From Candidatus Uhrbacteria bacterium RIFOXYB12_FULL_58_10 (GTDB lineage: Bacteria; Patescibacteriota; Patescibacteriia; UBA9934; GWF2-40-263), in assembly GCA_943359455.1 (NCBI GenBank), contig CALRHL010000009.1, positions 1-40,168 on the forward strand: DNA of 40,168 nt. Direction: 5' to 3'. Each line of letters begins with the position of its first letter. Position 1 is the stretch's first letter. A program made the translations under genes and the position numbers. Positions 5,063-7,018 of this stretch are shown in pieces. Below the pieces are notes generated by a model, which was not told where the DNA came from, did no database searches, and saw nothing but the letters and a program-made list of their open reading frames with translations.

Positions 5063-6178
5063 ATGGCCCGTTTACCTTCGTCCTTTCACAAGCTTTCTGT
5101 TCGTGCGCGTGATGCGCTTTGTGAGTTGACGGTTACAACCGAGCAGGATTTTGCGCTTGTGGAGCATGTGCTCGCGAGTGGGAATGCCTGGCATCGATTC
5201 GAGCGTCCGAAGCCCCGGGGTGGGGTGCGGGTGATCTATGCTCCAGAGACTCCACTTATGGATTATCTGAAGCGTGTCCTTCGCAATGTCTTGCAAGGAC
5301 TTGAGATGCATCGTTGTGTGCACGGGGGACATCCTGGTCGTTCCGTGATTACCAATGCTCGTCGACATGCTGATGGTGGTGCAAAGGCATTTTTTCTCAT
5401 GGACTTGAAGGATGCATTTCCCTCGGTCAGCCAGACAAAGTTTGACGAGGTGCTTGGGGTAAAACTCCGCAGGCATATTCAGTCAGCCGTTGATGTCGAT
5501 GCTGTTGATGCTGATGCCATCGCGTCAGTGATTACGGACATCATGTTCGTTGATCAGATCCTCCCTCAGGGATTTCCAACATCCCCAGGAGTGTTGAATG
5601 CAATTTTGTATCCCGTCGACCGCGAAATCGGAGCGTACCTCCTAGATCGTGGCACGAAACTCAATACGACATTTCGCTACACGCGATATGTCGACGACCT
5701 CACGATCTCGACGTCGTCGGATACGATCGATCGTGAAACACGCAAGGCGATCCAAAAGATTGTTTTGCGTAATGGTTGGAAGATCAAGAAGTCAAAAACT
5801 TCGTACATGGGGGAAGCAGAGGAGGGGGACGATGAACGCTCGACCAAGATGCCAGTCGTGACCGGACTTGTCGTGAATCCAGACGGTCGCCTCACGGTGC
5901 CGCGTTGGAAGCTCCAGAAGTGGCGCGCGTTTATGCACCAAGTGGTTTCGAAGGAAGTTGTCTCGGAACTGGACCGACAGAAAATCGCTGGTATTGTCGG
6001 GTATCTGGGAATGGTGTACGAAGGAGCTATCCCGAGTATCGTTCGCAAACCGTACGAGGCTGCGAAGGCTCGGTTTGGCTCAGGAAATGGCAGACTGCCA
6101 GAGGGACAGTCGGGGGAAATTCTCGATCCGGAGGAAACTCCAGAGTCGATGATGGGTCATGGTGGGACTCTGGAGTAG
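5063..6178 (+). CDS. Retron-type reverse transcriptase
   Basis: GGVRVIYAP, VITNARRHAD (NAxxH), FFLMDLKDAFPSV, LPQGFPTSPGVLNAI, RYVDDLTIS (YxDD), VVTGLVVN (VTG thumb motif); RBS TAGAGGATTTTCTCATG. Confidence 0.93.
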   Translation: MARLPSSFHKLSVRARDALCELTVTTEQDFALVEHVLASGNAWHRFERPKPRGGVRVIYAPETPLMDYLKRVLRNVLQGLEMHRCVHGGHPGRSVITNARRHADGGAKAFFLMDLKDAFPSVSQTKFDEVLGVKLRRHIQSAVDVDAVDADAIASVITDIMFVDQILPQGFPTSPGVLNAILYPVDREIGAYLLDRGTKLNTTFRYTRYVDDLTISTSSDTIDRETRKAIQKIVLRNGWKIKKSKTSYMGEAEEGDDERSTKMPVVTGLVVNPDGRLTVPRWKLQKWRAFMHQVVSKEVVSELDRQKIAGIVGYLGMVYEGAIPSIVRKPYEAAKARFGSGNGRLPEGQSGEILDPEETPESMMGHGGTLE

Positions 6179-6405
6179 ACAGAAGGTTTACCCGGGCACT
6201 TGCTCGGGGCACGTCTGATTGAGGCTGGTCGTATCGACCGGCTGAGGACATGCAATTTGGGGCACTGTGGTTTCGGTGCTTGTCTGCAGTGCGTCTTGAT
6301 GTCGCTACGCGACAGACGCACTGACTGACAGCTATCGGACACCGCGCTATCGCGCGGACGCTTCGCTTGTCCGATAGCCCGCACCTTTCGGGATGACCTG
6401 TCTAC
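6175..6405 (+). ncRNA. Retron-like msr-msd module 1
   Basis: a1 GTAGACAG 6175-6182 / a2 CTGTCTAC 6398-6405; hairpin CCCGGGC-ACTT-GCTCGGG 6191-6208; hairpin GGCTGGTCG-TAT-CGACCGGCT 6223-6243; box GCAATTTGGGG 6252-6262; outer GGTGC/GCACC enclosing hairpins 6287-6323 and 6331-6378; GGGATGAC before a2. Confidence 0.8.
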
Positions 6406-6415
6406 GTTGTTTAGT

Positions 6416-6703
6416 GATTAATCCGTACACGTTAGGTGGTTCGACGTAATGTCGGATCGCAAACTCGATGGTCTGGAAACAGATCAGAAGGATGACCGTT
6501 TCGGTTGTTTGAGAGTCCGCAATTTGGGTGACCGATCATCGCGTGTCCACCACCTGCTCCCTACGCATTCGCTCACTGCGTTCGCTGCTAGGGAGCAGGA
6601 GGTAGCCGTCCGACCGCTCACTCCGTTCGCTTCACAAATCCGTCGCAAGCTAGGATTTGTGACCGAACGGTACACACGCTATGGGATATCGTACGGATTG
6701 GTT
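6416..6703 (+). ncRNA. Retron-like msr-msd module 2
   Basis: a1 AATCCGTAC 6420-6428 / a2 GTACGGATT 6691-6699 (13 bp with wobbles); hairpin GGTTCGAC-GTAAT-GTCGGATC 6438-6458; GGTCTG-GAAA-CAGATC 6470-6485; ATGACCG-TTT-CGGTTGT 6492-6508; box GCAATTTGGG 6519-6528; outer GCGTGT/ACACGC enclosing hairpins 6553-6599 and 6623-6670; GGGATATC 6683-6690. Confidence 0.8.
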
Positions 6704-6707
6704 CGTT

Positions 6708-6979
6708 GTTCGTGCAAGGTACGTCGGGTCATTTGATCCGAACGTGTTCGTCTAGGCCGTCAAACGGCTTTTGGCCGTGAAGCGTCCTGAAAGGCTATCC
6801 GTATCGGATTGCCAAGAACGCGTAATTTGGGAGACCGGGATTGTTCGCTACACCCCCGCCTCCGCGAGTCGCTGTCGCTCCCGCTCCTCGCGGGGGTGAC
6901 AGGGGGTGACAGGGTTCAGCTTCGACGACTCGCTGACCCTGTCACCCCCTGTATCGCTCACCTGGGATATCGCACGAAC
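6708..6979 (+). ncRNA. Retron-like msr-msd module 3
   Basis: a1 GTTCGTGC 6708-6715 / a2 GCACGAAC 6972-6979; hairpin TCGGGTC-ATTT-GATCCGA 6724-6741; AGGCCGT-CAA-ACGGCTT 6754-6770; GGCTATCCG-TAT-CGGATTGCC 6793-6813; box GTAATTTGGG 6822-6831; hairpins 6851-6898 and 6899-6952; GGGATATC 6964-6971. Confidence 0.8.
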
Positions 6980-6984
6980 CACTT

Positions 6985-7018
6985 GCGGTCCGACGCAACG
7001 TCGGACCGCCCTTTTTTT
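6985..7018 (+). terminator. Rho-independent terminator closing the RT/ncRNA operon
   Basis: GCGGTCCGAC-GCAAC-GTCGGACCGC followed by CCTTTTTTT. Confidence 0.92.

Follow-up and report, generated by a model that had tools for sequence, protein, structure and literature searches.

A probable multi-template retron operon with three tandem non-coding RNAs in a Candidatus Uhrbacteria genome

The stretch of DNA analysed here (hereafter, the window) is the whole 40,168-nucleotide contig CALRHL010000009.1 from the 1.07-Mb, 97.7% complete genome of Candidatus Uhrbacteria bacterium RIFOXYB12_FULL_58_10. It probably carries a retron operon of multi-template architecture, composed of one reverse transcriptase (RT), three tandem msr-msd RNAs, a MoxR/NorQ-type AAA+ ATPase and a protein that combines an HExxH motif with a vWA domain. 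Retrons are probable anti-phage systems in which the RT copies a small RNA into DNA. The standard cassette has one msr-msd, located upstream of the RT (PMC6868368). This usual layout, which is not a strict requirement for a retron, is not the one seen here: the locus shares with Ec86, Ec67, St85/Ec78 and other retrons the RT family, motifs and fold, the a1/msr/msd/a2 layout and the linked partner genes, whereas its non-coding RNAs (ncRNAs) lie downstream of the RT, in tandem and one to eight in number across the related loci, with the msr conserved and the msd divergent.

The reverse transcriptase and the downstream array

The gene at 5063–6178 (forward strand) encodes a retron RT of 371 amino acids, as judged by motifs, profiles, fold and phylogeny. 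An earlier note on this DNA had recognised the retron motifs NAxxH (N98, A99, H102), YVDD and VTG (266–268); all are present, together with PQGFPTS, and N98, A99, H102 and V266-T267-G268 are invariant across 24 relatives. The best profile match is PADLOC RT_XIII (2.2e-45), followed by RT_III-A (8.9e-38), with a group II maturase at 1.1e-7, and all 16 of the members tested match retron profiles. For the AlphaFold model of the enzyme (pLDDT 89), the 13 best PDB matches are all retron RTs, ahead of group II, DRT9 and diversity-generating retroelement (DGR) RTs. In the maximum-likelihood tree the window RT clade (100/99) joins a sister clade (100/99) at 98/81. The retron-type RTs, all of them, stand apart from those of DGRs and group II introns at 98/97, both outgroups being on long branches. 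A position outside the retrons in the phylogeny, which the earlier note had named as grounds for refutation, was therefore not found; tree, fold search and profiles all place the enzyme among them.

Bacteria of the candidate phyla radiation are rich in DGRs. The locus could conceivably be one of these, a template repeat with its RT, and DGR-diversified MoxR-vWA systems are known (PMC10907252, PMC7159879), but the RT motif is QGFPTSP, which is not the DGR form, tree and fold put the RT with retrons, and the modules described below are structured RNAs and not a repeat matching a gene. DGR identity, taken as a DGR-type RT with template and variable repeats, was rejected on the motif and the tree, and we consider it extremely improbable.

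The 840 bp downstream of the RT, noted earlier as non-coding, are indeed so, although the non-coding stretch reaches the next gene at 7080 and includes, after the array, an intrinsic-terminator-like hairpin of 11 bp with a T run (6985–7016, forward strand). The array itself resolves into three modules on the forward strand. Module 1 (6175–6405) begins with the a1 arm GTAGACAG (6175–6182), which overlaps the RT stop codon, and proceeds through a triloop hairpin (6223–6243), a box (6254–6261), two msd hairpins (6287–6323 and 6331–6378) and the motif GGGATGAC (6390–6397) to the a2 arm CTGTCTAC (6398–6405). The same order is found in module 2 (6420–6699), with a1 AATCCGTAC (6420–6428), triloop hairpin (6490–6510), box (6521–6528), msd hairpins (6549–6603 and 6632–6662), GGGATATC (6683–6690) and a2 GTACGGATT (6691–6699). 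Module 3 (6708–6979) is recognised mainly by this common order and its motifs: a1 GTTCGTGC (6708–6715), triloop hairpin (6793–6813), box (6824–6831), msd hairpins (6851–6898 and 6899–6952), GGGATATC (6964–6971) and a2 GCACGAAC (6972–6979). The window modules thus have the parts of a retron ncRNA, namely the a1/a2 stem and the hairpins of both msr and msd; an Rfam search of the window returned no match.

The closing pairs amount to 8, 9 and 8 bp, all perfect and all different, as the earlier note had read them. When tandem Watson-Crick pairs of at least 8 bp, each spanning 200–300 nt, were sought, a chain of three arose in none of 2000 dinucleotide shuffles and a chain of two in 28 of 2000. The triloop hairpin that had been described for each module is present in all three, with a 9-bp stem in modules 1 and 2 and one T-T mismatch in module 3. 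The shared box, AATTTGGG, stands at 6254, 6521 and 6824, although its sequence is not kept in relatives, in which the hairpin and the layout are conserved instead. GGGAT(G/A)(A/T)C immediately adjoins the a2 arm in all three modules, so the GGGATATC-like motif noted before a2 is valid for module 1 too. G residues follow a1 in each window module (AAGGT, ACGTTAGG and AAGGT, respectively), and CTTG follows a1 in most modules of the sister clade.

Conservation of the modules in two clades

The close RT clade comprises 24 proteins (E < 1e-59, followed by a gap to 1e-20), whose loci were traced to DNA; its named relatives are Candidatus Uhrbacteria, and it is present in 5 of the 75 genomes of the order. 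Every close-clade locus in which the region is complete contains the RT, a non-coding gap of 0.5–1.5 kb, a MoxR-type ATPase and a vWA protein. A first scan of genome contigs with a single protein gave no match, and viral contigs yielded only remote relatives.

A covariance model (R1) was built from 25 module cores of the relatives, with the window left out. In its 9-bp triloop stem 98.2% of cells are paired and, in 8 of the 9 pairs, both positions have changed; not one of five measures is attained by any of 500 shuffles. Searched against the window, R1 returns modules 1, 2 and 3 (6204–6268, 6490–6533 and 6774–6846) at ranks 1, 2 and 4, with E values of 1.7e-7, 1.8e-4 and 0.54; genome-wide, the module 1 match has an E value of 4.5e-6. 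Lack of covariation in homologous loci, the other outcome that the earlier note had named against itself, did not occur, and covariation support for the modules is strong. By R1 and reading, there are two modules in locus L003, three each in L005 and L022, and four each in L021, L024 and L026. L004 has two, plus a third, divergent one seen by eye, and L023 at least three, plus one (3003–3067) that retains the msr core without an msd and is possibly an intermediate or a decayed unit. The R1 matches at L021 5414 (the same in L002/L125) were taken as chance, lying inside a coding open reading frame (ORF; 5080–5880, minus strand).

Intergenic sequence is hairpin-rich and there are repeats within the arrays, as might suit unrelated hairpin repeats of the REP or attC type that happen to lie 3' of the RT. 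Across 45 family genomes, however, R1 matches (E ≤ 0.01) are confined to the five that carry the RT, and both clades have the array in one place, after the RT and before MoxR, with covariation. Random repeats were rejected on this restriction, fixed position and covariation, and we give them next to no credence.

The sister clade, from the same bacterial class, repeats the order RT, gap, MoxR, vWA in L114, L115, L117, L118 and L120, with L116 and L119 interrupted by contig ends. It has eight tandem modules within 2.3 kb in L118, three in L120, at least two in L119, two in L117 and one each in L114 and L116. The earlier note had overlooked that, as a rule, both clades carry arrays of one to eight modules. 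A test that took the conserved GTTT/AAAC core as its anchor showed that the a1/a2 flanks running outward from it pair far better within than between sister-clade modules (58 pairs versus 21.4 expected; 0 of 20,000 shuffles). In L120 the modules are 96–99% identical to one another in the msr and 15–50% in the msd (shuffled mean 24, maximum 46), so that with near-identical msr and near-random msd each module would yield a different multicopy single-stranded DNA (msDNA). With their conserved msr and strongly diverging msd, these arrays suggest that several distinct msDNAs are made from one locus.

Several further features of these loci may be mentioned. The sister RT of L118 (8631–10184, minus strand) carries a fused RNase H (2e-26); L115 has an RNase H-like ORF (10255–10680, minus strand) immediately upstream of its RT. 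Among all 512 5-mers, TGACA/TGTCA shows the strongest enrichment in the RT-MoxR gaps of 13 loci from both clades (70 versus 28 expected, z 8.2, a figure inflated by the counting of both arms), mostly within CCTGACAG-like hairpin arms, and may be a common protein site in msds.

A hairpin resembling the msr triloop hairpin, overlooked in the earlier note, is also found in the RT leader (TTCGTGCAAAA-TGA-TTTTGTGCGAA; 5019–5043, forward strand), 19 nt 5' of the ATG. Within 60 nt before the start codon, a triloop hairpin occurs in 9 of 9 RT genes of the window clade (stem of at least 6 bp in 8 of them) versus 13 of 109 other ORFs of the same loci, the relatives counted not being independent of one another. 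The leader of L024 (2142–2209) matches R1 itself (E 1.8e-5), and the hairpin is absent from the sister clade. The simplest reading of this msr-like element is possible autoregulation through RT binding to its own leader.

Partner genes and genomic setting

The gene after the array in both RT clades encodes a MoxR/CbbQ/NorQ-type AAA+ ATPase (7080–8198, forward strand; 372 amino acids; Pfam AAA_5 7.4e-14, CbbQ_C 9.6e-6). It overlaps by one base the gene for a NorD/CobT-like protein of 611 amino acids (8198–10033, forward strand), our candidate effector. The N-terminal HExxH motif (H156-E157-H160), D191 and D195 of this protein and its C-terminal vWA metal ion-dependent adhesion site (MIDAS; D456-S458-S460) are invariant in both clades. 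Its vWA half resembles NorD by profile (2.8e-4) and NorQ-NorD complexes by fold. Protease activity of the HExxH part would be a guess, because the protein model reaches medium quality (pLDDT 76) and this part has no structural assignment. Both clades conserve the RT together with the MoxR and HExxH/vWA genes, a partnership that the earlier note had overlooked.

An AAA+ MoxR protein and a vWA protein with intact MIDAS in one operon are also what characterises NorQ/NorD, CbbQ/CbbO and other MoxR-vWA pairs, and the vWA fold here is closest to NorD. The present pair differs from these chaperone pairs in its linkage to a retron RT and ncRNA array, and in the invariant HExxH of the vWA protein. The AAA+/vWA pair is likewise akin to that of the MoxR-vWA ternary conflict systems (PMC7159879), although neither a VMAP nor an iSTAND component could be recognised here. 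With type XIII retrons the locus has in common its best RT profile match, but no PADLOC type XIII partner model matches the MoxR or vWA protein. Known type XIII partners are ARM and WHSWIM proteins. We do not class the locus as type XIII because the partner genes do not match, even though the RT profile fits that type best.

The inserted region (3305–12859) is flanked by rplU and recR, which are 8.6 kb apart in the window. Two genomes of the same genus that lack the RT have both genes on one contig, separated by about 0.6 kb and 1.1 kb; in a third, 0.4 kb lies between recR and the rplU tail, at a contig break. This proximity marks the operon as an accessory insertion, the setting one would expect for a defence locus. 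Upstream of the RT, positions 4508–4780 encode a 90-amino-acid fragment resembling the N-terminus of an ISNCY-family transposase, and directly 3' of the operon (10102–11736) there is a 544-amino-acid protein of HNH-associated repeats. In protein P0021 the RT and the C-terminal half of MoxR form one fusion, as though the array had been deleted, or through an assembly error. The more distant RTs L006, L007, L121, L136, L137 and L141 have no recognisable MoxR/vWA neighbours.

Interpretation of the locus

Retron identity together with a multi-ncRNA array is, in our estimation, likely; the earlier proposal of a 3'-located multi-ncRNA retron in which one RT serves three templates is supported by the tree, fold and profiles of the RT and by the covariation of the modules. 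Several observations nevertheless weigh against this interpretation. The G residues after a1 are at most candidates for the branching guanosine, and R1 gives module 3 a weak score. L005, L022 and L026 showed no clear a1/a2 stem, and a permissive, unbiased chain test with 7-bp a1/a2 pairs gave no excess over shuffles in L118, L024 and L021, so closure may differ in those relatives; the significant a1/a2 tests are the window chain, the L120 chain and the anchored sister-clade flank test. Some modules may be dead, as the L023 module lacking an msd implies. The RNAs of the array and their msDNAs are predicted products, the HExxH/vWA protein is a candidate effector by gene linkage, and a role in phage defence is presumed by analogy.

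A rival reading is that the RT uses these RNAs other than as a retron would: the modules would have a structural role or would template a product that is not branched, much as DRT (UG) systems have ncRNAs next to them. The location 3' of the RT and the multiplicity of the ncRNAs are both unusual for retrons, a branching G that is only a candidate would be in keeping with such a role, and DRT RTs likewise pair with ncRNAs (PMC12039810, PMC12483538). Against this, the RT groups with retron RTs by profiles, fold and tree, and the modules show the retron layout of a1, msr hairpins, long msd hairpins and a2. Moreover, two sister RTs have an RNase H fused or adjacent to them, which fits msDNA synthesis, a process dependent on RNase H1; according to PMC8989520, retron termination and defence require the host enzyme. 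We regard a non-retron use as unlikely. Slightly less likely still is that a single module is active and the others are decaying duplicates. The weak module 3 and the L023 unit would agree with this, but pairing is kept by compensatory change, including the different perfect a1/a2 pairs of each module, and there are two to four modules in every complete close-clade locus and eight in L118.

If the locus is a multi-template retron, each RNA would fold independently through its own a1/a2 stem, consistent with the complementarity and covariation observed. The shared triloop msr hairpin would be recognised by the RT, which would prime every module from a G near a1 and copy the msd hairpins starting beside a2, each msd giving its own msDNA. 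That the locus actually makes several msDNAs seems to us moderately probable. RT-msDNA particles could then keep the MoxR-vWA pair inactive, as in characterised retrons, and phage damage to or modification of any one msDNA would free the effector pair, several msDNAs broadening the range of what can be sensed. To phage defence by such sensing we assign about an even chance. When ncRNAs are scarce, the RT might repress its own translation via the leader hairpin. The most complete version, a multiplexed natural retron with constant msr and cassette-like msd exchange, one MoxR-vWA metallo-effector guarded by several DNA sensors and an RT level set by a leader msr mimic, is put forward tentatively, at a little under even chances.

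No natural multi-ncRNA retron was found in the open-access literature, in which 'retron array' appears only as an engineered tool. The engineered arrays of Gonzalez-Delgado et al. 2024, as cited in PMC12548924, also place several msr-msd units in one cell and are man-made for genome editing, whereas the present ones are natural. Three features appear to be new, provisionally so because the literature search covered open papers: natural multi-template arrays, partner genes of the MoxR-vWA(HExxH) kind, and an RT leader with an msr-like hairpin.

The description of a retron pairs one RT with a single template RNA. Up to eight templates arrayed naturally behind one RT would mean, if the reading is correct, that one retron is able to produce several DNA sensors. 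With the msr constant and the msd variable in one locus, what the msd sequence senses would become directly testable. The MoxR-vWA/HExxH pair adds to the partners of retrons, and the array would offer a natural blueprint for producing several single-stranded DNAs from one transcript.
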